Below, in pieces: positions 5,433-21,300 of a stretch of DNA of 64,000 nucleotides; the stretch's first letter is position 1, and each line of letters opens with the position of its first letter. The notes beneath the pieces were generated by a model, which had not been told where the DNA came from, made no database searches, and was given only the letters and a program-made list of their open reading frames with translations. Made by a program: the position numbers and the translations under genes. The DNA lies in the NCBI RefSeq assembly GCF_001999945.1, contig NZ_CP019650.1, positions 930,001-994,000 on the forward strand. Direction: 5' to 3'. Source of the stretch: Microbulbifer agarilyticus. GTDB lineage: Bacteria > Pseudomonadota > Gammaproteobacteria > Pseudomonadales > Cellvibrionaceae.

Positions 5433-5951
5433 ATGTACAGAATTCTGATGGCTACCGTTTTGCTGACGCTGGCGGCGATGAGCAATGCTCAAGGGGCCAA
5501 CCAGGTCAGCCGCGAAGAGATCCGCGGCCTCGACGAGCAGATCCAGGATGTTAAGAAAGATGTAATCAGCCTTACATCGGAGCTGAACCGCCTGGAAGAG
5601 AAGTTGCTGTTTCCCTCCAACACTCAGGTTGCGCTGTTTGTCTCCCTGCCGAATAACCAGGAATTCAGCCTGGAATCTGTCGAGGTGAAGCTCGATAACC
5701 AGGTTGTCGCCCACCACCTTTACACCTACCGCGAAATCGAAGCCCTGCAGTTGGGTGGGGTACAGCGTATCCATACCGCCAATGTGCAGACCGGCGCGCA
5801 TCCTCTGGAAGTGACCTACTTCGGCAAGTCCAAGTCCGGAAAAGAGTATCGTGCGACCGCGCGTTATAGTGTGGAGAAAGCGGTGGGTCCGAAATTTGTT
5901 GAGATCCAGATCGCCGGCAACCAGTCCGCTATCAACTTTAAGGACTGGTAA
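5433..5951 (+). CDS. Small exported coiled-coil protein, first gene of a Glt/Agl-like envelope operon
   Basis: I do not know an established name for this 172-residue protein. Residues 1-22 form a signal peptide (hydrophobic LMATVLLTLAAM, then SNAQG). Residues about 25-58 are heptad-like and charged, typical of a coiled coil, and the rest looks like a beta-rich periplasmic domain with VALFVSLPNN and HPLEVTYFGKSKSGKEY. Homologues in databases are sometimes labelled as AraC-type regulators, which the sequence does not support, as there is no helix-turn-helix. The next gene starts two bases after the stop, so it belongs to the operon running to 15722. By position it may be a periplasmic adaptor; that is inference. 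Confidence 0.85.
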   Translation: MYRILMATVLLTLAAMSNAQGANQVSREEIRGLDEQIQDVKKDVISLTSELNRLEEKLLFPSNTQVALFVSLPNNQEFSLESVEVKLDNQVVAHHLYTYREIEALQLGGVQRIHTANVQTGAHPLEVTYFGKSKSGKEYRATARYSVEKAVGPKFVEIQIAGNQSAINFKDW

Positions 5952-5953
5952 GC

Positions 5954-8053
5954 ATGATCACCCGTCTGGCCAGCGTGATTGCTGGTGCAGCCTTGACTGC
6001 GCTGTGTGCGGCACCCGCGCAGGCAAAAGCGCCTGTGGACCCGTCTGCCCTGCACACGGACCAGCTGCGCGACCTGTTTTTTGGTGAGGCACTGTTCCAG
6101 GCCCACCAGGATCAGTACTTTGATGCAATTACCGGTCTCGATACCGAACTCGACCAGTTCCGCCTGCTAGACGATCCAGAATTAGATCCATTCAGTCTGC
6201 ACTTTGGCCAGGCTGCTTTTGCTGTTGGTGACCTAGAACTCTCTTACCGCATGCACCGGGAAGCCGGCCGCGCCATGGAGCAGGTGCTCAAGGGCGATGT
6301 GCCGCAGCCAATCAAAAATGAAGCGGCCTACCGCCTCGCCAAAATTCACTACCACAAACAGCAGTTCGCCAATGCACTGCATGCTCTGGAGTTGATCGAA
6401 GGGCGTGTGCCCGAGCGGGTACGGGCGGAAGAGCTGTTTTTGCGTGCGCGCGTGTATATGCAGCTGGGCCGTTTCGAGGAAGCGATTGCGCTGCTAAAAG
6501 GGCTGAAAGGCGAAAAATCCCTTGCCGGGTTTGTGGAGTACAATCTGGGTATCGCTTTGCTCAAGGCCGGTGAGACCGAAAAGGGGGTGCTCGAGCTGGA
6601 TAGCCTTGGGCGCAATGCCGGTAGCAGCGACACCATGCGTGCGCTGCAGGATAAAACCAACCTGTTGTTGGGCTTCCAGCTGATGGAGTCCCAAAAGTAC
6701 GAGCGCGCGCGAACCTATTTTGATCGCGTACAGTTAAGCGGTCCTTTTTCCAATCAGGCGTTGCTGGGTGCCGGGTGGGTTGAGGCCAATGCGGGTCGCT
6801 ATGACCGCGCCCTGGTCCCCTGGCAATTGTTGACCCAGCGCAAGCCAACCAACGCATCGGTACAGGAAGCGATGCTTGCCGTCCCCTACAGTTACGGCAA
6901 GCTCGAGGTGCACAGTACCGCGGCGGTGAATTACGGTCAGGCGTTGGACCTGTTTGGCAACCAGGTTGATGTATTGACGCAATCCATCAACAGTATCCGC
7001 GAAGGTAAATTGCTCGAAGCACTGCGGCGTAAAGAAGCCAGCCAGGTTAAGAACTGGGTGGTGGAGTTGCGCAACCTGCCGGACGCGCCGGAAACGCACT
7101 ATTTACTGGAGCTGATGGCCTCCAATGATTATCAGGAATTCCTGCGTAACTACCAGGATCTGAATGACCTGAAAGAGCGGAACGAAGATTGGCTGCAGAG
7201 CCTAGATGCGTTTGACGAAGTCATTGCGCTGCGCCGCAGCTATTACGAACCCATATTGCCCTCTCTCGATGTGCAGTTCCGCCAGATCGATGCGCGTATC
7301 AAAATGCGTATGGAGCAGCGTCAGCGTCTGGCCGCTCGCATCGATAATCTGCTGGTGAATCGCCGCCCGGAGCTGCTGGCGAAAAGTGATGAAACGGAAT
7401 CGCGGCTGGTACTCCAGCAGATCCGGGAGATCCTCGACTACAACCCCACCCTGAAAAGCGAAGAAACCGAAGCGCGTATTGCCCGTCTTGAAGGTGTGCT
7501 CAAATTTCGCCTGTCCCGCGAATTTGATCATCGCCTGACCGAAGCCTTCAAGCGCTTGCAGGAGCTGGATGAGGTGATTGCCACTTTGCAGGAAACTTAT
7601 CAGCGCTATGTGCGCAGCCGGCAGGCAGCGACCCACAGCTATGAGGGGTATAGCGATCAGATCACCAGTTTGCGCGCGGGACTAAAACGCGCGCAAAAAC
7701 GTATCGATCAGCTGATGGCGCGCCAGGGGCGCATGCTTGAGCAGTTGGCGATCAACGAACTGGACCAGCGCCGTGCACAGCTCGAGAGCTATCAGATCAA
7801 GGCCCGCTTTGCCCTGGCCGATAGCTATGACCGCGCGAATGAACTGCAGGAGCAGCGCGCGGATGCCCGCAAGGTAGAAGAATACCAGCAGCAGGCTGAG
7901 CAAATGAAACAGGAGGCACCTGCGACGCCAATCTCTGCGGACGCGGATGGTGAAGCCCTGCCTGTGGATAACCCGCCGGAACTGCAAGCTCCCCAATCGC
8001 AGAGTGAAGCGATGGACGAGGTGGAAGAAGTAGACGGAGCTGGCGATGAATAA
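5954..8053 (+). CDS. Periplasmic TPR and coiled-coil protein (GltD/AgmU-like role suggested)
   Basis: A 699-residue protein with a signal peptide (residues 1-25, ending APAQAKA). Residues about 35-400 contain degenerate tetratricopeptide helices, for example AAYRLAKIHYHKQQFANALHALE and the stretch around ERARTYFDRVQ. From about 440 to 650 the sequence is highly charged and helical with long heptad runs, so a long coiled coil is likely, and it ends in an acidic, low-complexity tail. Signal peptide plus TPR plus coiled coil recalls the periplasmic TPR scaffold proteins of Myxococcus Glt machinery. Its last codons overlap the start of the next lipoprotein gene by eight bases, indicating translational coupling. 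The orthology is an inference from architecture and neighbours. Confidence 0.88.
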   Translation: MITRLASVIAGAALTALCAAPAQAKAPVDPSALHTDQLRDLFFGEALFQAHQDQYFDAITGLDTELDQFRLLDDPELDPFSLHFGQAAFAVGDLELSYRMHREAGRAMEQVLKGDVPQPIKNEAAYRLAKIHYHKQQFANALHALELIEGRVPERVRAEELFLRARVYMQLGRFEEAIALLKGLKGEKSLAGFVEYNLGIALLKAGETEKGVLELDSLGRNAGSSDTMRALQDKTNLLLGFQLMESQKYERARTYFDRVQLSGPFSNQALLGAGWVEANAGRYDRALVPWQLLTQRKPTNASVQEAMLAVPYSYGKLEVHSTAAVNYGQALDLFGNQVDVLTQSINSIREGKLLEALRRKEASQVKNWVVELRNLPDAPETHYLLELMASNDYQEFLRNYQDLNDLKERNEDWLQSLDAFDEVIALRRSYYEPILPSLDVQFRQIDARIKMRMEQRQRLAARIDNLLVNRRPELLAKSDETESRLVLQQIREILDYNPTLKSEETEARIARLEGVLKFRLSREFDHRLTEAFKRLQELDEVIATLQETYQRYVRSRQAATHSYEGYSDQITSLRAGLKRAQKRIDQLMARQGRMLEQLAINELDQRRAQLESYQIKARFALADSYDRANELQEQRADARKVEEYQQQAEQMKQEAPATPISADADGEALPVDNPPELQAPQSQSEAMDEVEEVDGAGDE

Positions 8054-11000
8054 TTCCGGTGTACTGAAAAAGGCCATGGCATCGCAGTACCGAAGCCTGG
8101 GATTGGTTACTGCCGCCTCTGCTGCACTGCTACTAAGCGCGTGCGCAAGTAACAGCGGCAAAACTATTGGTAGCTTACAAAAAGTCGAAATCGAGATACG
8201 TGAAACCCAGATCGATGGCAGCCTGGAAAAGGCGCTGGCGAGCTACCAGAAGTATCTGCAGGAAACCCCGGAAACGGCGCTGACGCCCGAAGCTATCCGC
8301 CGTATTGCCGACCTTAAAATCAAGCAGGCCCACCGCGCAGAAGAGGGCATTCTACCGGCCAGCAGCGAGACGCGGATCCTGTCAGAAGATCAAGTGGCCG
8401 CGGCTAATCAGCTCGCTAATACTAAGGCCGCGACCGCGACCGCGACCGCGACCGCGACCGCCAGCGCCGAACTCGACGCACCGCAGCTTGCCAGCGTGCC
8501 GGCGGGCTCTGAGCGCACACAAGTCGATCTGGCGAGCGTCACCCGCGGCACTGACGAGAAGCAAAGTGAGTTCGAGGCGCGTGCCAGTGGCTCGGTAGAT
8601 TTGAGCGGGCTGGAAAGCAACGCCGAGGTGTCCGTGCCAGGTGATGAGGCAGACGCACTGCTCGCCGCCAATGCCCGCGAGGCGATCGCCCTGTATCAAA
8701 AGTTGTTGGTGCAGTACCCGTTGTACGAGCGCAATGATCAGGTGATGTACCAGCTATCCCGCGCGTATGAGGAGACGGGCGAAGTGGAAGAGGCTGTTGC
8801 CATCCTGCTAAAGCTCGTGGCCAAGTACCCCGCGTCGCGCCATCTTGATGAAGCCTATTTCCGCTTGGGTGAATACTATTTCACGCGCAAAAAATACCTC
8901 GATGCGGAAGAGTCCTATGGCCGTGTGATTGCGATGGGTGAGGTATCGAGCTTTTACGAGCTGGCCATGTACAAACGCGGCTGGGCATTGTTCAAGCAAG
9001 ATATGTACGAAATGGCGCTGGACGATTTCGTTGGCATGCTCGACTACAAAGTGGCGGACGGCTACGACTTTGAGCAAACTTCCAACGAAACCGAGCGGAA
9101 GCATATCGAAGATACCTTCCGTGTGATCAGCCTCAGTTTCTCCTATCTCGGTGGTGCGGATTCCATCGTCGATTACTTCTCGCGCAAGGGCGCGCGGGAT
9201 TACGAGTCCTACGTCTACAGTCATCTGGGTGAGTATTACCTGGACAAACGACGCTATCAGGACGCGGCAAAATCCTACGACACCTTTGTCGAACTCAATC
9301 CGTTGCATAAGGTTGCGCCCGACTTTTCCATTCGCGTCATTGAGATTTACCAGAAGGGTGGATTCCCTCGCCTGGTGTTGGAGGCGAAGAAAGATTTTGC
9401 CAACACCTACGCGCTGGATGCTCAGTACTGGACGGTGTTTGAAATCCAGGAATATGCGGTGGTGCTGGAGTTCCTGCAAACCAACCTGATTGATCTGGCG
9501 AGCCACTATCATGCTGCTTACCAGAATGTGAAGCCGAAAGACAAAGAATTCGCCAAGAAACGCGGCGAGAATTATCTTGAGGCGATTCACTGGTATCGCC
9601 GTTACCTTGCATCCTTTGCCGACAAGCCCAAAGCACCGGAAATCAATTACCAGCTCGCCGGCCTGATGCTGGAGAACAAGGACTTCCTCAATGCGGCGCG
9701 GGAATATGAGCGCACTGCATACGATTACACCGGGCATGCGGTCAATGAGAATGCCAGTGAAGCAGGCTATGCCGCGGTGTTTGCTTACCGTGAGCACCTC
9801 AAAAACGATCTCGCCCAGGCCAACAATGCAGAAAAGGTTGCGCTGCAGAAAGAAATTATTCGCTCTTCTCTGACCTTCTCCGAAACCTTCCCGCAGCACG
9901 CCAAGGCGCCACAAATTCTGCTCGGCGCGGTGGATGACCTGTACAAACTGAAGAGCTTCTCGGAAGCGATTCAAAACGGGCGCCTGCTGCTGGAGAAGTT
10001 CCCTGGAGCGGAACAGCCGGTCAAGCGCTCTGCCTGGTTGCTGGTAGCCCATGCGTCTTTCGATACCGAATTGTATGCGGATGCAGAAGCGGGCTATCTG
10101 GAAGCGCTGCAGCTCACTGCCGTCGATGCGAAAGACCGTTTGGACCTGGTAGAGAATCTGGCAGGATCCATCTATCAGCAGGGTGACCAGGCGCGCAAAG
10201 CGGAAGATCACCTGGCTGCAGCAGAACATTTCTTACGTATCCGCGGTGCCGCGCCGACTGCCTCGATTTTGGCTACGGCCGAATATGATGCAGCGGCCTC
10301 CTTGATCCAGTTGCAGAACTGGGGCCGCGCGGCTGACGTCTTGCAAGCGTTCCGTGGCAACCACCCACAGCATGAGTTGCAGAAAGAAGTGACCAAAAAG
10401 CTGGCAGTGGTTTATCAGGAAAGTGGCCAGTTGTTGCTCGCCGGTGCCGAGTTTGAGCGCATCGAGCGTGAGTCCGAAGATGAAGACGTGCGCCGTGAAG
10501 CGCTTTCCCAGGCGGCAAGCTTGTACAGTGCAGCCAAGAGTTACGATAAGGCACTGGCGGTACTCAACCGCTACGTGAAACTCTTCCCGAGGCCCATGGA
10601 GCCGGCGCTGGAAACGCGCCAGAAAATTGCCGATATCTACCTCAATAGTGGCAACCGTAAAGCGTATTTCAACACGCTGGATGACATAGTACGGATTGAG
10701 TTGCGCGGTGGTAACGAGCGCAATGATCGCACCCGCTACCTGGGTGGTAGCGCCGCGTTAAAACTGGCCGAACCAAAATTCGATTCCTTTGCGGAAATTG
10801 CCCTTGTCGCGCCACTTGAGCGCAATCTCAACACCAAGCGCACACGCATGCAGGCAGCGACCAAGGCATTCAGCGATTTGATTGACTATCAGGTTGCCGA
10901 CGTTACCGCTGCAGCGACGTTTTATCTGGGCGAAATCTACTTGCACTTCAGTACGTCTCTGAAGGATTCCGAACGGCCAACCAACTTGAATGCGATGGAA

Positions 11001-11363
11001 CTCGAAGAATATGAGTTGGCGCTAGAGGAGCAGATCTATCCATTCGAAGAGCGCGCAATCTCTGTGCATGAGAAAAATATCGACCTGATGGCAGCCGGTA
11101 TTTACAACAGGTGGATAGCGAAGAGTATTGGTCAGCTGGCCGGCTTGGTACCGGCTAGATACGACCGCCCGGAAGAGGCGGGCAATATCGTCAGGATCAT
11201 AGTTCCGCAGCTCGAAACAGTGTCACAGCCAGAAATAGTGTCTCAGCCTGAAACAGAAAATTCGGCGACCGAAGTGATACATGGTACGACGGTCTCCCAA
11301 GAACCTGTCACAGAAGCAGACGCGATGATCGCGGATAATTCGACCCAGGAGGATCAGGGCTGA
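8046..11363 (+). CDS. Large TPR lipoprotein of the envelope operon
   Basis: A 1,105-residue predicted outer-membrane lipoprotein: the N-terminus ends in LLLSAC, so Cys33 would be lipidated, and the residues after it (ASN) do not signal inner-membrane retention. After a low-complexity stretch at about residues 125-145 made by a hexanucleotide repeat, the body from about 205 to 900 is filled with tetratricopeptide-like helices such as AYFRLGEYYFTRKKYLDAEESY, AYEETGEVEEAVAILLKL and LGEYYLDKRRYQDAAKSY. The C-terminus is acidic and repetitive (pairs of SQPE). A Shine-Dalgarno GGAG at 8036 supports the start at 8046. The stop overlaps the next ATG by one base. TPR lipoproteins of this type act as large protein-binding scaffolds; the partner is not known, but the motor-like genes downstream are the obvious candidates. 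Confidence 0.9.
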   Translation: MNNSGVLKKAMASQYRSLGLVTAASAALLLSACASNSGKTIGSLQKVEIEIRETQIDGSLEKALASYQKYLQETPETALTPEAIRRIADLKIKQAHRAEEGILPASSETRILSEDQVAAANQLANTKAATATATATATASAELDAPQLASVPAGSERTQVDLASVTRGTDEKQSEFEARASGSVDLSGLESNAEVSVPGDEADALLAANAREAIALYQKLLVQYPLYERNDQVMYQLSRAYEETGEVEEAVAILLKLVAKYPASRHLDEAYFRLGEYYFTRKKYLDAEESYGRVIAMGEVSSFYELAMYKRGWALFKQDMYEMALDDFVGMLDYKVADGYDFEQTSNETERKHIEDTFRVISLSFSYLGGADSIVDYFSRKGARDYESYVYSHLGEYYLDKRRYQDAAKSYDTFVELNPLHKVAPDFSIRVIEIYQKGGFPRLVLEAKKDFANTYALDAQYWTVFEIQEYAVVLEFLQTNLIDLASHYHAAYQNVKPKDKEFAKKRGENYLEAIHWYRRYLASFADKPKAPEINYQLAGLMLENKDFLNAAREYERTAYDYTGHAVNENASEAGYAAVFAYREHLKNDLAQANNAEKVALQKEIIRSSLTFSETFPQHAKAPQILLGAVDDLYKLKSFSEAIQNGRLLLEKFPGAEQPVKRSAWLLVAHASFDTELYADAEAGYLEALQLTAVDAKDRLDLVENLAGSIYQQGDQARKAEDHLAAAEHFLRIRGAAPTASILATAEYDAAASLIQLQNWGRAADVLQAFRGNHPQHELQKEVTKKLAVVYQESGQLLLAGAEFERIERESEDEDVRREALSQAASLYSAAKSYDKALAVLNRYVKLFPRPMEPALETRQKIADIYLNSGNRKAYFNTLDDIVRIELRGGNERNDRTRYLGGSAALKLAEPKFDSFAEIALVAPLERNLNTKRTRMQAATKAFSDLIDYQVADVTAAATFYLGEIYLHFSTSLKDSERPTNLNAMELEEYELALEEQIYPFEERAISVHEKNIDLMAAGIYNRWIAKSIGQLAGLVPARYDRPEEAGNIVRIIVPQLETVSQPEIVSQPETENSATEVIHGTTVSQEPVTEADAMIADNSTQEDQG
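8429..8460 (+). repeat. Hexanucleotide tandem repeat (CGCGAC) inside the TPR lipoprotein gene
   Basis: Five perfect copies of a six-base unit lie at 8429-8458, with a partial sixth. In frame they encode alternating Ala-Thr. Because the unit is six bases, copy number changes would lengthen or shorten a linker by two residues without breaking the frame. Confidence 0.9.
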
Positions 11364-11971
11364 TGGGTATTCTGTTGCCGTTTACGGAGATCACGCGATT
11401 GGGGAAATTGGGGTTGCTGCTGGTTTTGCTGCAGTTACTTGCCGCATGTGCCAGTAGTCCCCAGACCTCGCGCAGCCCAGTAAACCCCTTGAATGTGAAG
11501 GTCTCCGGTAGTGTCAATCGAGACTTTACCCAAGCCGTTGCATATCTCGAAGGGGAGCGCTATCCAGAGGCGATTGAATTGTTGCAAAGCGTGGTCGAGC
11601 GAGAGCAGAGGCTTTCTGCACCCTATGTAAATCTCGGTATTGCCTATTACCGTACCGGTGATGAAAAGCATGCGGAGGAGTCTTTTCTGGAAGCCTTGCG
11701 CGCTGCACCGCTCGACCCGGTCGCGAGTAATGAGTTGGGGGTTCTCTACCGTCGTCAGGGGCGATTTGACGAGGCGAAAGCTACCTACGCAAAGTCTTTG
11801 CAGTTACACCCGGACAACCCGCCGCTCATCAAGAATCTCGGTATCCTATGTGATCTCTATCTTCGGGATGCGAGCTGCGCACTCGCCCAGTTTGAGCAGT
11901 ATTTAAAAGTTCGACCGAATGATGCCAAAGTCTCTATCTGGGTAACCGACCTCAAGCGGAGAGTGAACTGA
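11363..11971 (+). CDS. TPR lipoprotein (GltE/AglT-like role suggested)
   Basis: A 202-residue lipoprotein with the lipobox LLAAC, Cys29. The mature part is four or five tetratricopeptide repeats: AVAYLEGERYPEAIELLQ, APYVNLGIAYYRTGDEKHAEES, VASNELGVLYRRQGRFDEAKATY and PLIKNLGILCDLYL. It has the size and layout of small TPR outer-membrane lipoproteins such as AglT/GltE or PilW-like pilotins. It overlaps its neighbours by one base on each side, so it is co-translated with the large TPR lipoprotein upstream and the small protein downstream. The genomic setting with TolQ/TolR-like genes favours a role in an energised envelope complex over type IV pilus assembly. Confidence 0.88.
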   Translation: MGILLPFTEITRLGKLGLLLVLLQLLAACASSPQTSRSPVNPLNVKVSGSVNRDFTQAVAYLEGERYPEAIELLQSVVEREQRLSAPYVNLGIAYYRTGDEKHAEESFLEALRAAPLDPVASNELGVLYRRQGRFDEAKATYAKSLQLHPDNPPLIKNLGILCDLYLRDASCALAQFEQYLKVRPNDAKVSIWVTDLKRRVN

Positions 11972-12279
11972 TGAACAGTGTTTTGCGTCCACTTGCGGTA
12001 CTTTTTCTATTGTCGACTGGCGTTGCCGCGTCGGGACAGGAAGAGGGCGAAAGCGGTGAATCTAAGGTGGACAATGAGGTTAAGGAGCTGTCCGGTATCT
12101 CCATTATCGGTAACAAAGAAGCCCCAAAATCTCTTTACATCGTGCCGTGGAAAAGCTCGGAGGTCGGTGTCGAAAGTGGCTTGAACTCCAGTTTGCTCGA
12201 CCCTAGGTTGCAGCCGTTGGACAAAGAAGTATTTTCTCGAGAGCTTGAGTTTTACCAGCTCAGTCTCCCGGAAGACTAA
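11971..12279 (+). CDS. Small exported protein of unknown function in the envelope operon
   Basis: A 102-residue protein with a signal peptide (residues 1-22, cut near VAASG). The mature part starts with an acidic linker, then a block that looks conserved in character, LSGISIIGNKEAPKSLYIV followed by PWKSSEVG. I believe I have seen similar phrases in hypothetical proteins next to TolQ/TolR-like genes in other gammaproteobacteria, but I cannot name the family. Its start overlaps the stop of the TPR lipoprotein (TGATG). A 109-base gap with a small hairpin (TGGCC/GGCCA near 12317-12331) separates it from the TolQ-like gene. Confidence 0.8.
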   Translation: MNSVLRPLAVLFLLSTGVAASGQEEGESGESKVDNEVKELSGISIIGNKEAPKSLYIVPWKSSEVGVESGLNSSLLDPRLQPLDKEVFSRELEFYQLSLPED

Positions 12280-12388
12280 TTTCGTACTTATTTTACTTTT
12301 ACATTTAATTTACTAGTGGCCTATCAGGCCAGAACGAGGCAAAGCGGCGCAACCGCGGACCCGAGAAAGAAAACCAAGAGGAAAAGTG

Positions 12389-13165
12389 ATGGATTTCTTT
12401 AACAGCGTAATCGCGTTTTTTCAGACTGGTGGTGCATTCATGTATCCCATTCTGGTGGTGTTCGCGCTCGGCGCCGCAGTGGCCATCGAACGTTACATTC
12501 GCCTTATTTACGAGCGTCGTACCAATCGCGCGGCCTGGGAAAAGCTTCAGCCAATTTTGAAAAGCGGTGACTTTGACCGCGCGCGTAACCTGGTGAAGGA
12601 AGATAACACTGGTGTCGGCCGTTTGCTTGCCATGGGTCTCGAGCGCCAGGGTGCTGTTCGTCGTCGTGAAGACATCGAAATCGCGATGGAAGAAAGCATT
12701 ATGGAAACCATTCCGCAGCTGGAAAAGCGTACTCCATACGTGGCTCTCGGTTCCAACATCGCCACGCTGTTGGGCCTTCTGGGCACCATTATGGGCCTGA
12801 TTGAAGCATTTACAGCGGTAGCCAATGCCAACCCCGCGGAAAAGGCCGACTTGCTGTCTGCCAGTATTTCTGTGGCCATGAATACCACCGCCTTCGGTCT
12901 AATGGTCGGTATCGCACTGCTGATTGTGCACGCGCTGCTGAACTCGCTGACCGGTCAGATCGTGGACAGCCTGGAAATGGTCTCTGTGAAGGCCTTGAAC
13001 ATTATGTCTTCTGCTACCCGTCGTCGCAGTGATGCAGCCAAAGAAGAAAAGGCAGCAGGACCCGCAGATAAGCCCAAGAATCAAGACGTCGAACAAACCC
13101 GTCAGGCTCAAGCAAAGCCTGTGGCCAAAAAGACGGGTGAAACTTCCAACGCGGAATCGGTGTAA
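12389..13165 (+). CDS. MotA/TolQ/ExbB proton channel family protein (AglR-like)
   Basis: A 258-residue inner-membrane protein with three predicted membrane segments: about residues 17-37 (MYPILVVFALGAAVAIERY), about 125-150 (SNIATLLGLLGTIMGLIEAF) and about 165-190 (TTAFGLMVGIALLIVHALL). The LLGLLGTIMGLIEAF and SISVAMNTTAFGL segments are the hallmark of TolQ/ExbB/MotA stators. These proteins form pentamers that use the proton gradient to drive a TolR/ExbD partner. The C-terminal cytoplasmic tail of about 50 residues is longer than usual and rich in Lys, Ala and Gln. The ATG at 12389 is preferred over GTG at 12386; AGAGGA lies just upstream. The stop overlaps the next ATG. Confidence 0.93.
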   Translation: MDFFNSVIAFFQTGGAFMYPILVVFALGAAVAIERYIRLIYERRTNRAAWEKLQPILKSGDFDRARNLVKEDNTGVGRLLAMGLERQGAVRRREDIEIAMEESIMETIPQLEKRTPYVALGSNIATLLGLLGTIMGLIEAFTAVANANPAEKADLLSASISVAMNTTAFGLMVGIALLIVHALLNSLTGQIVDSLEMVSVKALNIMSSATRRRSDAAKEEKAAGPADKPKNQDVEQTRQAQAKPVAKKTGETSNAESV

Positions 13166-13764
13166 TGAGAAACAGGCGTCACAGCAGAGCCAAAGAAGCG
13201 CCGGAGCTGGACATTACCGCCTTCCTGAACTTGATGGTGGTGCTGGTACCGTTCCTGCTGGTTTCCGCCGTGTTCTCGCGGGTCACCATTCTTGAGTTGA
13301 ATATGCCAAGCGGTGCCGGTGGCGGTGCAGATGATCCGGGGGTATCTCTGGAGGTCGTGGTGCGCAAAGAGGTCTTGGAAATCAGTGATGGTGACAAGGT
13401 GATCGCCCGTTTTCCGAACCTGAACCAAAGTGAAGAGCAAGCCGATGCTGCAACCGCGGCAGACGCAGTGCAGGTACCGGTGGATGAAAATGGCTTGCCC
13501 ATTGTTCCGCCGACGGAAGAGGTTTACGACTTGGTTCAATTGCGCGAGACGCTGATGCGTATTAAGGAAACCTATCCGGACAAAACCGATTCCACCTTGT
13601 TGATGGAGCCCGATGTGGCTTACGAGCATCTGGTCGGCATTATGGATACCGTGCGCAGCGCTGACGTGGTGCCTGTTCCGGAAGACGGCAGTGCTCCAGA
13701 CCCGGATGCCGTGCCGGAACGTATGGAACTCTTCCCCGATATTTCCCTGGGAGACGCGCCGTGA
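13165..13764 (+). CDS. ExbD/TolR-like protein lacking the conserved membrane Asp
   Basis: A 199-residue protein with one N-terminal membrane helix and a periplasmic domain, laid out like ExbD/TolR/AglQ/AglS. The helix reads LDITAFLNLMVVLVPFLL; in ExbD and TolR the residue at this point is the proton-carrying Asp (as in TPFIDVMLVLL), but here it is Asn22. The periplasmic part is larger than in ExbD (about 140) and contains an acidic insertion at residues 85-110. The start codon overlaps the TolQ-like stop, and the stop overlaps the GTG of the second ExbD-like gene. The two paralogues probably assemble together in one motor, with this copy perhaps not protonated; this is inference from the residue change. 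Confidence 0.92.
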   Translation: MRNRRHSRAKEAPELDITAFLNLMVVLVPFLLVSAVFSRVTILELNMPSGAGGGADDPGVSLEVVVRKEVLEISDGDKVIARFPNLNQSEEQADAATAADAVQVPVDENGLPIVPPTEEVYDLVQLRETLMRIKETYPDKTDSTLLMEPDVAYEHLVGIMDTVRSADVVPVPEDGSAPDPDAVPERMELFPDISLGDAP

Positions 13765-14336
13765 AACGTGAAAGTAGACGCATGAAGCGCATGGCGCGTA
13801 GCCGCAAGCGCAAAACACCGGGAATGAACCTGACTTCCCTGATGGATGTATTCACGATCCTGGTGTTCTTCCTGCTGACCAATAGCGCCAGCGATGAAGC
13901 GATTGAAGCCCCCAAGGTGATTACCCTGCCGGATTCGGTGGTGGAGTCCAAGCCGCGGGAAACCGTGACTCTTATGGTTACCCACGATGAGGTGTTGATC
14001 GAAGCAAAACCGGTGATGACTACCGAGGAGCTTTTCCAGAGTGAGGAGCTGGTGGTCGCAGCAATCCAGCAGGCCATGATTCAGGAAGTCGGCAAAGCAA
14101 TGACCATGGCGGATACCGAGTTGGAAGAAGCCAAGCTGGCGCTTGCCGAACGCGCGGCGGCGGGGGAAGACGTAACGGAGGAGGCGGCAGCCTTGCTGGC
14201 AGAGCCACCGGAAGTGAACATTCTCGCGGACCGTACCGTGCCGTTCAGTATCCTGAAAAAAGTTATGTCCAGCTGTACCAATGCCGGATACACGCGAATT
14301 TCCCTCGCGGTTATTCAAAAAGCATCTCAGAGTTAG
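13761..14336 (+). CDS. ExbD/TolR-like protein with the conserved membrane Asp
   Basis: Second TolR/ExbD paralogue, 191 residues. A very basic cytoplasmic N-terminus (many Arg and Lys in residues 2-18) precedes the helix NLTSLMDVFTILVFFLL, in which Asp29 sits where ExbD has its essential protonatable Asp. The periplasmic part has an acidic, alanine-rich insertion at about residues 105-150, then a TolR-like end (VPFSILKKVMSSCTNAGYTRISLAVI). It starts with GTG overlapping the previous stop by four bases. With the TolQ-like protein it should form the proton-driven core of the operon. Confidence 0.93.
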   Translation: MKRESRRMKRMARSRKRKTPGMNLTSLMDVFTILVFFLLTNSASDEAIEAPKVITLPDSVVESKPRETVTLMVTHDEVLIEAKPVMTTEELFQSEELVVAAIQQAMIQEVGKAMTMADTELEEAKLALAERAAAGEDVTEEAAALLAEPPEVNILADRTVPFSILKKVMSSCTNAGYTRISLAVIQKASQS

Positions 14337-14345
14337 TGAGCGTTT

Positions 14346-15722
14346 GTGAATAAATTTCATCAACAAAAACAGGCACTGGCCGCCAAGCAGGACGCGGTTC
14401 GCCAGCAGTTGGCTGTACTCGAGGACGAGTGCGGTCAGGTTGATGGCAAGCTGGAGGCGCTGCACCGGGATGAAGCCAAGCATCAATTGCTGGATGAGAT
14501 TTCGGACCGTCTGGGCCAGCTGGAAGAGGTGGGTGCAGGCGATCTGTTCTGGGCAGAGCACTATAAGCAGGATGCGTCCAAAGCGCTTATCCATCGCCTG
14601 CAGAAAACGGTCAGTATCTACCACGCGAATATCGACCTGCTGCACGAGCGTAAAAACAAGCTGCAGGCGCAGGTTGAGGATTGTCGTGACGAGCTGTTCG
14701 ATCTGGATGCAGAGTTCCGGGAAATCCGCCAGGCGGAAGAGGAAGTTCACTACGAGTACGAAGTAACACGCGAGCTGGGTACATCTGCCTTCCGCGATGG
14801 GACTATGCCGTGGAGTACCAACGGCGAGGATGAGCGTCGGTTCCGCAAGAGCCTGCTGGCCTGTTTGTTACTCGCACTTTTCCTCGGTTTCGGTACGCAT
14901 ATGTGGCAGTTGCCGGAACCGGACGAAGATGAAGTTGTGGAGGTGCCCGAACGTCTGGCCAAATTGGTATTGGAAAAGAAAAAGCCCAAACCCAAGCCAG
15001 AGCCCGTGGTGAAGAAGCCGGAAGAAAAGAAAAAAGAGCCTGAGAAACCCAAACAGCAGGTGGCAAAGGAAGAGCCCAAGCCGTCCAATGTCGAGAAGAA
15101 GCAGGTGCGCAAGAAAGTGGAGCGCGCCGGTGTTCTTGCCTTCAAGGATAACTTCCAGGATCTTATCCAGGATGATCTCGACAATCGCCTGGGTAACCAG
15201 ACTCAGCTCAGTACCGCAGGCAAGAAGGAAAATCGTAGTCAGCGCTCGCTGATTACCGCTGCCGCGAAATCTGGGTCTGACGGTATCAATACCGCAGCGC
15301 TCAGCCGCAACGCTGGCGGTGTGGGTTCCGCGCTGGATGGGGTGAGTTTCTCGCGGGTATCCAGTGGTATTGGAACTGAGGGCGATTTCGCCGGCGAAGA
15401 GCGCCCGCTCAGCGACGGTATGGGACCATCCCGGACCGACGAAGAGATCCAGATCGTGTTTGACCGCTACAAGTCTGCATTGTACCGGATCTACAATCGC
15501 GAGCTGCGCAACAACCCGGCGCTGCAGGGCAAGATGGTGCTGCGAATCACCATCCAGCCAGATGGCTCGGTGTCTCTGGCGGCGGTGGAGACCAGCGATA
15601 TGGACTCCCCGGCACTGGATAGCAAGATCGTGGCGCGGGTGAAGCGGTTCAATTTTGGTGAAAAAGCCGGTGTGCCGACCATCACTATTTTGTATCCGAT
15701 CGACTTCCTGCCTGCAGCATAA
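14346..15722 (+). CDS. TonB/TolA-like energy transducer with cytoplasmic coiled coil (AgmX/PglI C-terminal type)
   Basis: A 458-residue protein with an unusual layout. Residues 1-160 are cytoplasmic and strongly coiled-coil (many QQ, EE, LEAL heptads). One membrane helix lies at about 168-187 (SLLACLLLALFLGFGTHMW). Residues about 205-255 are a Lys/Pro/Glu linker like that of TonB. Residues about 365-458 form a TonB-C-like domain (RIYNRELRNNPALQGK, then VVLRITIQ-type text and VARVKRFNFGEKAGVPTITI), as in the AgmX/PglI (GltJ/GltG) proteins of Myxococcus. TonB and TolA have only a few cytoplasmic residues, so the long coiled coil suggests a cytoplasmic partner. GTG start at 14346. It is the last gene before a terminator. 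Confidence 0.9.
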   Translation: MNKFHQQKQALAAKQDAVRQQLAVLEDECGQVDGKLEALHRDEAKHQLLDEISDRLGQLEEVGAGDLFWAEHYKQDASKALIHRLQKTVSIYHANIDLLHERKNKLQAQVEDCRDELFDLDAEFREIRQAEEEVHYEYEVTRELGTSAFRDGTMPWSTNGEDERRFRKSLLACLLLALFLGFGTHMWQLPEPDEDEVVEVPERLAKLVLEKKKPKPKPEPVVKKPEEKKKEPEKPKQQVAKEEPKPSNVEKKQVRKKVERAGVLAFKDNFQDLIQDDLDNRLGNQTQLSTAGKKENRSQRSLITAAAKSGSDGINTAALSRNAGGVGSALDGVSFSRVSSGIGTEGDFAGEERPLSDGMGPSRTDEEIQIVFDRYKSALYRIYNRELRNNPALQGKMVLRITIQPDGSVSLAAVETSDMDSPALDSKIVARVKRFNFGEKAGVPTITILYPIDFLPAA

Positions 15723-15731
15723 TCTGCGGTT

Positions 15732-15775
15732 AAAAAACAACCACTCGGGGTCTTCCCGAGCGGTTGTTTTGTTTC
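15732..15775 (+). terminator. Intrinsic terminator of the envelope operon
   Basis: Arms at 15735-15749 and 15755-15769 pair over 15 bases with one mismatch around a five-base loop, followed by a T-rich tract. It separates the motor-like operon from the giant surface protein genes. Confidence 0.9.
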
Positions 15776-15971
15776 TTAAGAAATTACCTGAGCTTTACTT
15801 GAGAACTGCTTGGCAAAGATAGAAAAAGCTCCCCTCTCACCCCGACAATTTTGACTTGTTTCACGGTGGTGATCCTCTCCTTCCAATAAAGTTCCGCGAC
15901 CGGCTCCTTCTCCGGTACTGCTGCCTGTGCGGCAGTTGGCAAACAATAAAACTGACTGGCAGCGGAAAGCG

Positions 15972-18356
15972 ATGAAGTCTGAAGTAACAGGGCGAAAATC
16001 TTTCACAAATACACTGGCCGCGGTGGCGCTGGCCTGTGTAGGGGTACTGCTGCCGGTGGGCAAGGCTTCTGCCCAGTCTTGCCCGAATCCCGATATCGAG
16101 ATCAGCCATAGCACTTCCAGCTTCTGTGAGTTGTGTAGCGGTGGCCAGGTCATCCTGACCATTCACAACGATACCAACAACGGTCCGGGCAATGACGCCA
16201 ACCAGGCGATCACTAACATCGTGGTACAAGAAGACCTGCTGGAAGTGGCCGATGTCCTCAGCTACCTGAATAACTCAGCTGATGTATCCATCACCGGAGC
16301 GCCAGACCCCGGTGTGGTGAACCCAAGTATCAGTGGGTCCACGCTGCAATGGAGTTTCGGCAGCGGTGTGTCCATTGACCGCAATGAGACCATGACGATT
16401 ACCTTCGACCTGGAGGCGATTCCGGGCGAGCAGGAAGAGTTGGTCAATATCAGCCGTGCGCTGGCGGCTTCGGTTCAATATGACTATCTGAATTGTGGTG
16501 GTACACCGGAGTCTGGTGCGGACACCAGCCCAGGTTTCACGCTGCCGATCAATGAGCCGCGCCCCTCCATTGCCAAGGCCGGGATCAATGTGGATGCGGG
16601 CATGGGCGGCGGTGACTATGCCGACACGGTATACGGTCATGAAGACGACGGTGTTGTCTGGCGTGCGACCTTCAGCAATGCCGGCCCAGTCACTATGGAA
16701 GACGTAAAATTTTCCGACGACATGACCCCGGGCACCATGGATATCCTGTCGGTTTGTTCCAGCCAGGGCGATGCCATCAATGTGGCCAATGGCGCTTCCG
16801 CGAGTACGGGTAGCTGTGTGGATGTGTCCGCACGCAATAATTCGCTGTCGGACCTGACTGCTGCTGATCTGGGTTTCAGTCTGGATGTGGCGAATACCCT
16901 GAATGTGTATTTTGCCGGCCGCTTGAACGACTCCTGTAACAACCAGACCAATACGTTGCACTCGCTGGAGTGGGGTTGCGCAGTAGTGGCACCAGAGGGC
17001 GGGATTTCACAGAGCGCTGTGGGAAGTAGCCCATCCCCCGATTCGGTGACCACGACGCTGAGTGTTTTGTCATCCGACAGTGGTGGTATCAACGGCGGTG
17101 TGAACTACCGCGCGGACTATGCCGGTATTGATGGAAGTGGCCCTGTCGGCATGCGTGGTCTGGTGACGCTGACGGTTGAGAACCTGAGTGGCGGTACCAT
17201 CAAGAATGTACGCCTTACCGATACGTTGCCCGATGAATACATTGTTGATCCCAGTTACGAACCCGATTTTACGATCAATTCATTGTATGCGGATTACGAC
17301 GGTCGGGTTGTCGACTTTATCTGGGAAAACCGCGTTAATCCCGTTGCCGGTAACCAAAGCTATCTTGCGGATACAGACCTGAAAGCCCCGGTATTTAGCC
17401 TCCACAGTAATGGTGAGCGGGCGAATGGCCAAGCCGACCAGGTTAACCTGTTGCGACACGGGGATATCGCCACCATCACCTTCCGTATTGTTCAGGCCAA
17501 CCAGAATGGCTCACTCGATTACTATGATCGTGAGACCGATCTCGATGCCAGTGGTAGCGCCGATCCCGACCCCGCTGCTATGGGGACCCTGCAAAACAAT
17601 GTGCAGGTCGAGTGGGAAGATTTCTGCAATACCGGCGGCCTGAGCCACAGCAAAGACAGCAACTTTGGGTTTACGCCGAATCCGGAAGATCTCGATATTT
17701 CCATGGATGCGCCGCTGTATATTGTGAAGGACTCGGGCACGACCGATCTCTCCATTACCATTCGCAACAATGGCGGCCATCGCGCCCATGACTACTACGC
17801 GTACGTGACGTTTGGTGAGGCCATGAATGTCGTTGGTATTCCCAACGGCTGTATCGCGACCGCCAACCCACCTCAGCACCCTGATGGTGGGGCGATGCCA
17901 GTGTGGAATGATCCGAGTTTTATTCCCGCCAGTGCATCGGTTTACCTGTGTTCAGACGGCAATTCTGGTCTGGGGAGCATCCCGGGGGGCGGCTCGCGCA
18001 CACGCACTTTCCAGGTCGAAAAAAATCACGGTGCGACGGACGATGATTTGACCTTCCGTGCAGACATCGTGGGGGAAATCACGCTTGCCAACGACGAACC
18101 CCTGGAATACCCAACCGCAGCAACTTTGGCATTGACGACACCGAGTGCGCAGCGGGCCAACAACTACACCCTCGATGGTGTGCGCTCCAAGGTATTGGGT
18201 TTTAACCTGCTGAAATCTCTGGTGCCTGGCAGTTGTACTGAACTGTCCGCGGGTAATCGCGGGGGGATGAAGAAAACATCCTTATTGGTGAAGACTGTCG
18301 TTTTGAAATCTATGCCGGTGGCTGGTTTGGTTTCAGGACTCCTGGCTATAGCTTGA
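15972..18356 (+). CDS. Giant DUF11-repeat surface protein, N-terminal part (frameshifted)
   Basis: Reading from ATG 15972 gives a signal peptide (residues 1-36, ending GKASAQS), then a Cys-containing N-terminal domain (FCELCSGGQ) and beta-sandwich repeats of the DUF11/isopeptide-fimbrial type, marked by phrases such as VRLTDTLPDEYIVDPSYEP and VEDLLEVADV. GGAAAG lies just upstream of 15972; a GTG at 15927 is an upstream alternative with no better support. The last roughly 30 residues (from about 765) are out of frame: after a run of six G at 18261-18266 the sensible protein continues in another frame with DEENILIGEDC, which joins the next entry. One extra G would fuse both into a 3,746-residue protein. 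So this is one gene interrupted by a mutation, a phase-variable tract or a base-calling error. Confidence 0.85.
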   Translation: MKSEVTGRKSFTNTLAAVALACVGVLLPVGKASAQSCPNPDIEISHSTSSFCELCSGGQVILTIHNDTNNGPGNDANQAITNIVVQEDLLEVADVLSYLNNSADVSITGAPDPGVVNPSISGSTLQWSFGSGVSIDRNETMTITFDLEAIPGEQEELVNISRALAASVQYDYLNCGGTPESGADTSPGFTLPINEPRPSIAKAGINVDAGMGGGDYADTVYGHEDDGVVWRATFSNAGPVTMEDVKFSDDMTPGTMDILSVCSSQGDAINVANGASASTGSCVDVSARNNSLSDLTAADLGFSLDVANTLNVYFAGRLNDSCNNQTNTLHSLEWGCAVVAPEGGISQSAVGSSPSPDSVTTTLSVLSSDSGGINGGVNYRADYAGIDGSGPVGMRGLVTLTVENLSGGTIKNVRLTDTLPDEYIVDPSYEPDFTINSLYADYDGRVVDFIWENRVNPVAGNQSYLADTDLKAPVFSLHSNGERANGQADQVNLLRHGDIATITFRIVQANQNGSLDYYDRETDLDASGSADPDPAAMGTLQNNVQVEWEDFCNTGGLSHSKDSNFGFTPNPEDLDISMDAPLYIVKDSGTTDLSITIRNNGGHRAHDYYAYVTFGEAMNVVGIPNGCIATANPPQHPDGGAMPVWNDPSFIPASASVYLCSDGNSGLGSIPGGGSRTRTFQVEKNHGATDDDLTFRADIVGEITLANDEPLEYPTAATLALTTPSAQRANNYTLDGVRSKVLGFNLLKSLVPGSCTELSAGNRGGMKKTSLLVKTVVLKSMPVAGLVSGLLAIA

Positions 18357-21300
18357 TCCAGGTAGAAAGCGTCGCCGTCAGTGATGACATGCCCGATGGT
18401 CAGGGTTATATCGACCACAATGCATTGGCATGTGCAGAGGCCAGCTTCCCTAACCCGGAAACGGTTTGTGATGTGGCTCTGGCGGGCGCGGCAGAATCTG
18501 GTGGATTGAATAATCCGCTCAGTGAAACCGATCTTCAATGGAGTCTTGGTGACACCATTGACGAGCGCAACCGCTGGTTCCTCGCGGATATGACCACTCG
18601 CCTGCTGAACGATCCAGTCGACACCGTTGCTGCTCCCAACCAGCACGCGGCCGTGAGTACCGATTATGCGCGTGCTGTCTTTACTGCGGTTTACGATACC
18701 GAGAGCATCGTCATCGACAATAGTGGCGGCCGCCCCAATATTCCCGGCTACCCGGAAGAGGCGGATTGGCGTGAAGACCTGACGGTTGCAGAACCCGAAT
18801 TTGAAATTGAAAAACTGGTGTGTAACGAGACCACCAGTGGCGGCTGTGCCAGCGACAGCGATTTTGCCGATAACGCCGAAGGTACGCGCTTCGATACCTT
18901 TATCTACAAAATTACCGTAAGCAACCGCACCAGCGATAGCGGTGTACCACGTGCACCCGGTTACGACCTCGTTGTTATCGATAATCTCGATGCCCGCGGC
19001 CAAATGTGTGTACAGGACTTTGGTAGCGATGGCCTGGATAACGATGGGGATGGTAGCGACGAAGCCGATGGTACTCAGGAAGGTTTCCTCGGTACTGCAC
19101 CTTTCCAGAACGATTACGATATTCCCACGCACTGTAACGATGGCGGCACACCTGCGGTAATTACGTTCCGTCACGATCTTTCCGATGCGCTCAAGCGCCT
19201 GGATGCCGGCGAGAGTGTTTCCTTCCTGTATCGCGTGGCACCGCACCAGTCGGTCGCACCGTTGCAGCCGTTCCTGAACACCACTTACGCGCGCTACGAT
19301 TCTCTGGCGAACGCATTTGGTAATCAGAACGTACCGCAGCTCGAAAGTGATGCAAATCTGGATGGTTTGGGGGATGACCTCGGGTCTCCGGACAATAGTG
19401 GGCGCGCGCGGCATTACCAGACCGAAAGCACCACTGCGAATATGCAGATAATCCCGGTGGAAACCCAGCCCAAAGAGGTGGTGACTAGTGCGACCATCGA
19501 GGCGGCCCTGGTAACCCCAAGCAGCGCCGATGGTAGCGCCCTCGTTGTGGGTGAAGAAATTCGCTATCGCCTGACGGCACAGATTCCGCCTTCACGTCTG
19601 CGTGAGCTGACGATTACCGATACCTTGCCGGAAGGGTTGCGTTGTACCGATGCGCCAGAAGTGGACCTGGATGCGATCGCTGCGGCGTCGGGAGCGAGTT
19701 TCGAACCCGGCGGCCAGTTTACGATCGCTAATGGTGGTATTAGCTGTAACAACGACAGCATTACCTGGAATTTTGGTCTGCAGGATTTGACCACTGCAGG
19801 CGGCCGTCGCCTGGACCTGCCGGTAGACTTCTTCGCGCGCTTGGAAAACAGTGCGCAAACCAATGACGGTAATGTCATCACCAATGGTGGTAGTGCAACC
19901 ACGGCGGAAGTTTCCTACATTGATGAAACCGGCGCGCAACAGCGTATTGCGTTTGAAAGCCATAGTTTCACGGTACTCGAACCGCAAATTGCCCTGCAGA
20001 AAGCGTTTGATGTTACCAATACCGATGCGGACGATATTCTCACGGTGACCGTTACCGCAGAAAATTTCGGTTCTGCCTCTGCGTACAACCTGCAGGTGTT
20101 GGATGATCTCGTGGGAAGTCGCTACACCTATGTCGGCAACATCGGTGGTAACGACCCTCCCGATAGCGACAATGATGGTGTAAACACCAATGCCCCGACC
20201 TTCGCCTGGGACCGCAGTAATAGTGATTACGCCATTGCCCCCGGTGAATCCAAATCCTTTACCTTCCAGGTGCGCGTTAACCAGGATGTCGCACCGCATG
20301 AAGTCCTGTCCAATACTATCGAAAGCCGCTGGCAATCCTTGCCCGGCGATGATGTTGCGTTAAATAGTAGTGGTGTAATCGGCAACGATGGTGAAATCGA
20401 CGGTATGCGCATCGGCGCGTTGCCGAATCTCGGCGATGCGGTGAACGACTACGAAACGACTGCAGACGCCGAAACCGAAGTATTGCCACTGACGATTAGC
20501 AAATCCGACCTCGACGATACCGTGGTCCCCACCATTGGTGCGCACAAGCATTTCCAGCTTGAAATACTGCTGCCGGAAGGGATCACTACCGAGGTGTCTG
20601 TTTCCGATGTGCTTAACGCCAATGGCACTGGCTATGCGTTGACGCACAATAGTGATTACGACATTACCTACGAGTTTATCGGTATCGACGCCATTAATGG
20701 CGAAACGCCGTCCGAGGCAGCGCTTACCTTATTCCCCACCGACGGTACCACCACGCCAGGTACGGTTACCTGGGAAATCGGCACCGTGGATACAGCCCAC
20801 GAAGATGATGTGACGGTCAATGATGTGACCCCCACCATTCGCATTCAGTACTTTGCGCGTATTAACAATGATACCGGTACCGATGCGGGCGATAGCCTGG
20901 TTAACACTGCCACGCTGAATTACCTGAACCCAGTGACCGGTGTGGCCGAATCATTGGGTGCCGCGGCCCCGGCAACCACCGTGGTTGAACCACTGCTGCA
21001 ACTGGAGAAGACCGTTGCCAACCTGACCAATGATGGTCAACCGGCGCAAGGCGGTGACGTGCTGGAATATACCCTGCGGGTTACCCACGCCGGCGGCTCC
21101 TCGGCCGATGCCTTTGATTTGAATCTGGTTGATACGTTGCCGTCGGAATTGCAGCTGGATGACAGCTTCACGCCGACTGCGCAGATCGATACAACAGATG
21201 TGGCCGGTTTTGTCGCTGCGCCGTCTGGCGCGCCCTTGGGGCCGCTGGTATGGGGCAAGGGCAACAGTGATAACAGTCTCGACCTGCCACAGGGCAGTGA

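Follow-up and report, generated by a model that had tools for sequence, protein, structure and literature searches.

The window examined here is a stretch of 64,000 nucleotides from Microbulbifer agarilyticus (contig NZ_CP019650.1, positions 930,001–994,000 of the forward strand), whose source genome consists of one contig of 4.26 Mb. Between positions 5433 and 15722 it carries nine open reading frames (ORFs) on the + strand, exactly where an earlier note on this DNA had placed a co-directional, mostly overlapping operon for an energised envelope machine of the Glt/Agl kind, and both the ORFs and their domains agree with that description. Most neighbouring genes abut or overlap, the sole inner gap of more than 20 bp being found at 12280–12385. 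The nine genes are as follows (aa, amino acids; TPR, tetratricopeptide repeat).

5433–5951, + strand: gene 1, exported protein of 172 aa
5954–8053, + strand: gene 2, exported TPR/coiled-coil protein of 699 aa, GltC-like
8046–11363, + strand: gene 3, TPR lipoprotein of 1105 aa, GltD-like
11363–11971, + strand: gene 4, TPR lipoprotein of 202 aa, GltE-like
11971–12279, + strand: gene 5, small exported protein of 102 aa
12386–13165, + strand: gene 6, AglR-like (TolQ/MotA-type) motor subunit of 259 aa; MotA_ExbB 82.8 bits
13165–13764, + strand: gene 7, AglQ-like (ExbD/TolR-type) motor subunit of 199 aa; ExbD 45.8 bits
13761–14336, + strand: gene 8, AglS-like (ExbD/TolR-type) motor subunit of 191 aa; ExbD 57.1 bits
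14346–15722, + strand: gene 9, GltG/TonB-like transducer of 458 aa with an AgmX/PglI C-terminal domain

TPR families were recognized in genes 2–4, MotA_ExbB in gene 6 and ExbD in genes 7 and 8; the signal-peptide-like starts of genes 1, 2 and 5 and the lipobox-like starts of genes 3 and 4 were judged by eye and not by a predictor. Owing to its collinear recurrence in many genomes, the nine-gene set stands far above chance. No Tol-Pal or iron gene adjoins the operon, as had also been remarked earlier: upstream lie molybdopterin genes, with MoaE named by Pfam and the remaining ones presumably also moa genes, and downstream lie two large exported-protein genes (15927–32442), which begin beyond the interval of the earlier note and whose linkage to the operon is consistent in Microbulbifer.

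Membership of the Glt/Agl core complex

Luciano (2011; PMC3169522) described a gammaproteobacterial 'core complex', for which homologues of AglR, AglQ and AglS and of GltC, GltD, GltE and GltG are encoded in a cluster; in the part of that paper available to us, the function of the complex was given as unknown, one additional gene without Myxococcales or Bdellovibrionales homologues was mentioned, and Teredinibacter and Saccharophagus were named among those with duplications of the core. The operon of the window belongs to this core complex, so that the proposed Glt/Agl-like membership is borne out in the form of a system known since 2011. In the literature searched, no later functional study of the gammaproteobacterial core complex was announced by title.

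The genome of Myxococcus sp. CA023, reached through an MglA search, served as reference for the Glt/Agl comparison. With the AglR profile two Myxococcus proteins scored 184 and 163 bits, as against at most 84 bits for the other matches, and the top match is part of a trio of 245, 162 and 194 aa, which are the lengths of M. xanthus AglR, AglQ and AglS in the published text at hand. In a tree of 57 sequences, for which Tol/Exb/Mot-type proteins from the source genome and one Myxococcus genome were used as outgroups, the AglR proteins of the cores and both Myxococcus AglR-like proteins formed one split with an ultrafast bootstrap of 100, which places the motor outside the ordinary TolQR and ExbBD families. 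The two ExbD-type subunits were assigned by gene order, profile scores and nearest neighbours; the AglQ family profile gave 79 bits with Myxococcus AglQ and 28 bits with AglS, and the AglS family profile 105 bits with Myxococcus AglS and 18 bits with AglQ. Gene 9 scored 65.5 bits with NF033768 (AgmX/PglI C-terminal domain; cut-off 40) and 68.5 bits (4.2e-19) with the GltG model NF033760, the latter under its cut-off of 650.

Naming genes 2–4 straight from NCBIfam was abandoned, as the Glt scores lie below the cut-offs and type IV pilus PilW (64 bits) outscores GltE (41 bits, under its cut-off) for gene 4. These genes were named by way of their Myxococcus counterparts, which are under the equivalog cut-offs themselves, only the true GltG being above. 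The gene 2 profile led to Myxococcus proteins at 1e-13 and 4e-15, and with NCBIfam GltC these counterparts gave 2.5e-18 and 6.6e-62, neither of which reaches the equivalog cut-off; a PDB search with gene 2 yielded general TPR proteins. With the gene 3 profile, four Myxococcus proteins of 1089–1286 aa (best 318 bits) were detected in Glt-type clusters, and it is from this neighbourhood and from Luciano (2011) that the name GltD is taken, no GltD model having matched gene 3 or its Myxococcus counterparts. Likewise, the gene 4 profile led to four Myxococcus proteins in Glt-type clusters (119–220 bits), one of which matches NCBIfam GltE at 3.5e-35, under the equivalog cut-off. The supposed link of the TPR proteins to Glt thus holds by way of these clusters and of GltC and GltE matches below their cut-offs. 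Gene 3 has its nearest relatives in Microbulbifer, the highest identity (94%) being to a protein named M. agarilyticus. Within gene 3, a short GC-rich tandem repeat at 8426–8459, detected as a hairpin, encodes an Ala-Thr run and is a possible slippage site.

Genes 1 and 5 are two conserved extra genes of the operon. The gene 1 product has a signal helix, a coiled coil (27–59) and a beta-sandwich (65–171); its fairly confident AlphaFold model (pLDDT, predicted local distance difference test, 86.5) had no match among PDB folds at E 0.001, and a sequence search of the PDB with gene 1 gave nothing below E 0.5. The gene 5 product, without a family match in Pfam or NCBIfam, has a conserved motif, G..E.P......PW, in an alignment of 21. 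As weak Myxococcus counterparts exist, namely a CA023 homologue of gene 1 (1e-7) which adjoins mglA and a 91 aa homologue of gene 5 (6e-6) beside a GltG paralogue, the two genes probably occur outside Gammaproteobacteria as well.

Among 145 genomes of the order, GltG matches were found in 54 (one weak, in G063) and gene 3 matches in 63, nine of which were weak TPR matches. From the clusters obtained in both searches, 44 contexts were fetched and labelled, which are a selection and not every cluster. All nine families were labelled in 24/44 contexts, and the AglR, AglQ, AglS and GltG families in 42/44. Fifteen of the 20 contexts short of nine labels were without a label for gene 5, gene 2 or both only, and the other five were without gene 1 or more, one of them through a contig end. 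The gene neighbourhood is thus co-conserved. At L043, L044 and L045, all from a single family, genes 1 and 2 are placed 3' of gltG, behind a thioredoxin-like gene, indicating that they move as a pair. At L068 and L070, gene 3 reads 1447 and 1534 aa and gene 2 is without a label, and the two genes may be fused there.

An Asp/Asn asymmetry in the motor

The proton carrier of ExbD/TolR-type subunits is a transmembrane Asp. In Myxococcus, both AglQ (residue 28) and AglS carry it. In the AglQ-like subunit of the window, Asn22 aligns with Asp28 of Myxococcus AglQ, and the AglS-like subunit has Asp29.

13228–13230, + strand: codon (aac) of AglQ-like Asn22, corresponding to Asp28 of Myxococcus AglQ
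13845–13847, + strand: codon (gat) of AglS-like Asp29, the pair's only Asp at this transmembrane position

Conventional AglRQS motors have a transmembrane Asp in each of the two subunits, AglQ and AglS; the window motor departs from this, and with Asn at the proton-carrying place of the AglQ-like subunit, proton transport there is left to the AglS-like subunit alone.

This pattern is not peculiar to the window. Within the order, the AglQ position was Asn in 39, Ser in two and Asp in two of 43 proteins, a count which takes in the window and its genus mates and omits proteins outside 150–220 aa, e.g. the split L042, and Asp was present in AglS in 44/44. Elsewhere in the class, all 65 loci (57 genomes) that lie outside the order and score 119 bits or more, taken from a search of 274 genomes of the class and leaving out the already counted L245 and L252 and the window's own row, had Asn at the AglQ position in 64 cases and Asp in one, with AglS Asp in 65/65. 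The gammaproteobacterial total thus comes to 103 Asn, two Ser and three Asp of 108 at the AglQ position, and to 109/109 for the AglS Asp. Asp in both ExbD-type subunits was observed only at L071 and L073 (family code f23) and at L299 (G207), which are useful natural controls; the Asp-bearing protein at the AglQ position of L073 was labelled aglS by score and reassigned to AglQ for the counts. As the AglQ Asn is conserved and not drifting, we argue that the subunit has kept a role.

In the portion of PMC3858216 available to us, the D28N substitution in M. xanthus AglQ is described to abolish proton conductance and to paralyse the machine, and a review (PMC9389320, likewise in part) describes an Asp that is conserved in AglQ as well as in AglS and states that it is not known whether the two form hetero- or homodimers. 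In the available text of the open-licence papers on AglQ and AglS the Asn is not mentioned, although a prior mention elsewhere is possible. We give slightly less than even odds to the view that gammaproteobacterial Glt-type machines have, class-wide, a natural one-Asp axle, i.e. an AglQ Asn/AglS Asp heterodimer in an AglR pentamer, coupled to differing surface systems. If so, a substitution lethal to the Myxococcus motor would be the fixed wild type in Gammaproteobacteria, and the machine would have been coupled in many lineages to a haem/flavin redox module and in Microbulbifer to a giant protein of fimbrial type. In rotary models of 5:2 motors, two Asp residues are used in turn, and the conserved AglQ Asn offers a natural test of how such motors work.

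Genes beside the core

The GltG of the window differs from that of other cores in an N-terminal coiled-coil extension of ~150 aa, which was seen in Microbulbifer only. Among 42 GltG lengths taken from the contexts, the two window-type proteins of the genus have 459 aa and the other 40 have 301–357 aa. Window-type GltG is present in 47/48 Microbulbifer genomes and its 47 copies align over almost their full length; the same 47 genomes hold the OmpA-domain protein described below, and the one genome without either is 80% complete. A second, typical core copy was found in 35/48 Microbulbifer genomes. In a tree of five proteins, the window GltG and those of two genus mates formed a clade, and the second copy of the source genome joined the other family members.

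Downstream of the transducer gene lie the following features.

15734–15770, + strand: terminator-like hairpin followed by a T-rich stretch, 3' of the transducer gene
15927–27211, + strand: giant DUF11/isopeptide-fimbrial-type exported protein, candidate cargo; overlapping ORFs 15927–18356 and 18353–27211
27208–32442, + strand: OmpA-type-domain protein of 1744 aa (OmpA PF00691), candidate cargo partner

Parts of the giant protein were recognized in NCBIfam as an isopeptide-forming fimbrial-type protein. Its gene follows directly 3' of gltG in the window and in three relatives examined, and in two genus mates one ORF runs across both parts; the split of the frame in the window, at 18230–18360, is a sequencing error or a real frameshift. 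In 45/47 Microbulbifer genomes, window-type gltG and the OmpA-domain gene are on one contig and strand with the OmpA-domain gene downstream, the nearest copy being 9–24 kb away, and in 2/47 they are on different contigs. The OmpA-domain protein has an OMP_b-brl match only below cut-off, in a possible outer-membrane barrel region; a model of residues 560–1744 from a six-sequence alignment was unusable (mean pLDDT 35) and hence lends this barrel no support. In two Microbulbifer genomes (G170:C7 and G191:C1), a second OmpA-domain copy lies ~16 kb from the first, which suggests a tandem duplication of the DUF11-OmpA pair. A cargo search by general conservation was given up, as the only contexts with DUF11 or OmpA-domain neighbours were the two window-type ones of Microbulbifer. 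From its linkage, the giant DUF11 protein together with the OmpA-domain protein is most likely the partner or cargo of the Microbulbifer machine. The cargo that the earlier note had left blank is in this way narrowed to a candidate just outside the interval it covered, the part as cargo being itself putative.

Beside other cores a redox module recurs, which is made up of an HZS_alpha lipoprotein-like protein, an SH3 protein, a small barrel, a thioredoxin-like protein with WCGPC, DUF3570, ApbE and a protein of ~535 aa. The HZS_alpha protein is large, with two or three CXXCH motifs in 15/16 copies. At least three of the seven module families were labelled in 18/44 contexts, representing 10 family codes; the labels were seeded from the same contexts, those for SH3 and small barrel overlap and those for u523 are partial in two contexts, so that these counts are descriptive. 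Over the 145 genomes, 41 had both DUF3570 and GltG, 13 GltG only, 13 DUF3570 only and 78 neither, and by family code both occurred in 21/47 (p about 1e-4, Fisher tests without phylogenetic correction). DUF3570 is a substrate of ApbE flavinylation according to the part of PMC8238504 at hand, and in the main text of that paper tetratricopeptide, ExbD, TolR and gliding do not occur. The second, more typical core of the source genome (G000:C1:4000001-4020000, L037, with L189 upstream) is flanked by ApbE, DUF3570, thioredoxin-like, SH3/barrel and HZS_alpha proteins and has Ser at the AglQ position; the window copy is without the module. The module, with its HZS_alpha/PD40 protein, was observed beside cores in several families and in varying orientation (L040, L041, L042, L047 and L054; further contexts are L057, L058, L066, L067, L069 and others).

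Proposed machine, rival explanations and comparison with known systems

Gene content, family membership, the Asn/Asp pattern and the genomic linkage are established here; stoichiometry, direction of force, cargo and the spanning of the envelope we infer. The reading which we prefer, with a probability of about 0.6, is that of a trans-envelope machine of the Glt/Agl/Nfs type, driven by the proton motive force through a lopsided Asp/Asn motor and tied in Microbulbifer to a giant surface protein. The AglR-, AglQ- and AglS-like proteins would constitute an inner-membrane motor whose axle may be an AglR5-(AglQ+AglS) heterodimer with one working Asp, and proton flow via AglR and the AglS Asp would turn or shift the AglQ/AglS axle. 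GltG would couple to the motor, cross the cell wall and transmit the movement via its TonB-type tail. The periplasmic and outer-membrane part would consist of the TPR proteins resembling GltC, GltD and GltE, of which two are lipoproteins, and of the two small exported proteins. GltG would pull the TPR lipoproteins, which would pass the force on to a partner in the outer membrane. For Microbulbifer, this role would most likely fall to the giant DUF11 protein and the OmpA-domain protein, and the machine would help to display, extend or move them at the cell surface. The motor and GltG steps are drawn from homology and conserved residues and the cargo step from linkage.

Several observations weigh against this reading. 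As to the motor, the Asn could mean that AglQ stands outside the conducting axle, the tree of the ExbD-type subunits lacks clean AglQ or AglS clades, and the PDB sequence matches include no Agl motor structure. As to the cargo, a DUF11 and OmpA-domain pair is present in G061, where no GltG match was found, and the pair is therefore not dependent on the machine everywhere; DUF11 and OmpA-domain neighbours were absent from 42/44 contexts, in which a median of 7 kb was seen downstream; and the terminator-like hairpin between gltG and the giant gene indicates that the two may be separate transcripts. Hairpins 3' of gltG were found in 4/4 relatives examined, one of them weaker and not all with a clear T run; they were scored without a shuffled control, and a wider scan gave 19 terminator-like sites versus 12.8 expected.

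The Asn pattern could also be explained by an AglR5-AglS2 motor with a homodimeric two-Asp axle, in which the Asn-bearing AglQ would be a separate structural or regulatory subunit. We regard this as doubtful, and as the main rival to the heterodimeric one-Asp axle. An invariant AglS Asp (44/44 and 65/65) beside an AglQ Asn in 103/108 speaks for it, and the dimer state is not known according to the consulted part of the review (PMC9389320); AglQ nevertheless retains its ExbD-type domain and is labelled beside AglS in 42/44 contexts, and M. xanthus AglQ needs its own Asp28, as far as PMC3858216 was available. An ordinary TonB/ExbBD or Tol-Pal system is hardly tenable. The best PDB sequence matches of the AglR-like profile are indeed TolQ and ExbB, and the equivalog models matched are likewise TolQ and ExbB, below cut-off, but the AglR split with the Myxococcus AglR-like proteins, the AgmX/PglI tail, the TPR partners and the lack of Pal, TolB or a receptor in the operon speak against it, and on the AglR tree and the gene content this assignment was rejected.

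With regard to what is moved, the same machine might serve another cargo: its ancestral job would be linked to an outer-membrane redox system, the Microbulbifer copy would retain a similar job on unlinked substrates and the DUF11-OmpA pair would be a chance neighbour acquired in the ancestor of the genus. This is unlikely in our view, even if the redox module in 18/44 contexts (10 family codes), the co-occurrence of DUF3570 with GltG in 41 genomes (21/47 family codes, p about 1e-4), the module beside the second core of the source genome and the DUF11-OmpA pair without a core in G061 all favour it, since two Microbulbifer genomes without DUF3570 and without a second core still keep the window-type machine with DUF11-OmpA, and the linkage persists in 45/47 genomes despite a varying distance, which presumably reflects varying length of the giant gene. 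A true gliding motility machine, for which the core proteins in common with the Myxococcus Glt-type clusters would argue, is improbable, as no Group A protein was recognised in the operon, a finding that does not extend to the genome, where no search was made. The trans-envelope machine tied to the giant protein thus remains our preferred reading. The conserved AglQ Asn, the genus-wide giant partner and the association with the redox module are apparently new. The recurrent neighbours name candidate cargoes, for Microbulbifer the giant surface protein and for cores elsewhere a multihaem/flavin outer-membrane module, and either link, if true, would give an orphan machine an assay.

Compared with known systems, the operon is closest to the core complex of Luciano (2011), sharing homologues of AglR, AglQ, AglS, GltC, GltE and GltG and a GltD-like protein in one cluster plus an extra gene. 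It has, however, two extra genes (1 and 5), each with a weak Myxococcus homologue, and the account in PMC3169522, as far as that text was available, mentions neither the Asn of AglQ nor the lengthened GltG nor a linkage to a giant protein. With TonB-ExbBD and Tol-Pal, the operon has the motor superfamily and a TonB-like tail in common, but it differs in its separate AglR clade, its two different ExbD-type subunits, its TPR lipoproteins and the lack of a receptor or Pal in the operon.

The Myxococcus Agl-Glt gliding machine (G1, G2, M1) shares motor, transducer and TPR core with the operon, and contact between AglR and GltG has been detected in M. xanthus by two-hybrid assay (PMC3169522, available part). 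Unlike the window, it has Asp in both AglQ and AglS, and the N-terminus of Myxococcus GltG matches FHA models where window GltG has a coiled coil. Of its Group A proteins (GltA, GltB, GltF, GltH–K), none was recognised in the operon with Pfam and NCBIfam, and no genome-wide search was made. The Myxococcus G4 cluster (MXAN_1922 region) is likewise related: in CA023, counterparts of genes 1, 2 and 3 come after mglA with their order unchanged, no adjacent AglRQS is seen and the contig ends after gene 3. The CA023 mgl cluster is presumably G4, to judge from the gltD homologue MXAN_1922 and the mgl locus numbers. This core-like cluster beside mgl is locus L178 (Myxococcus sp. CA023, C36:1-12000), where the gene before mglA was taken as mglB by its position. 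Finally, the Myxococcus Agl-Nfs spore-coat machine, a Glt paralogue driven by Agl, moves a surface polymer (PMC3858216, in the part consulted); the cargo of Agl-Nfs is a carbohydrate coat, whereas the candidate cargo here is a protein.

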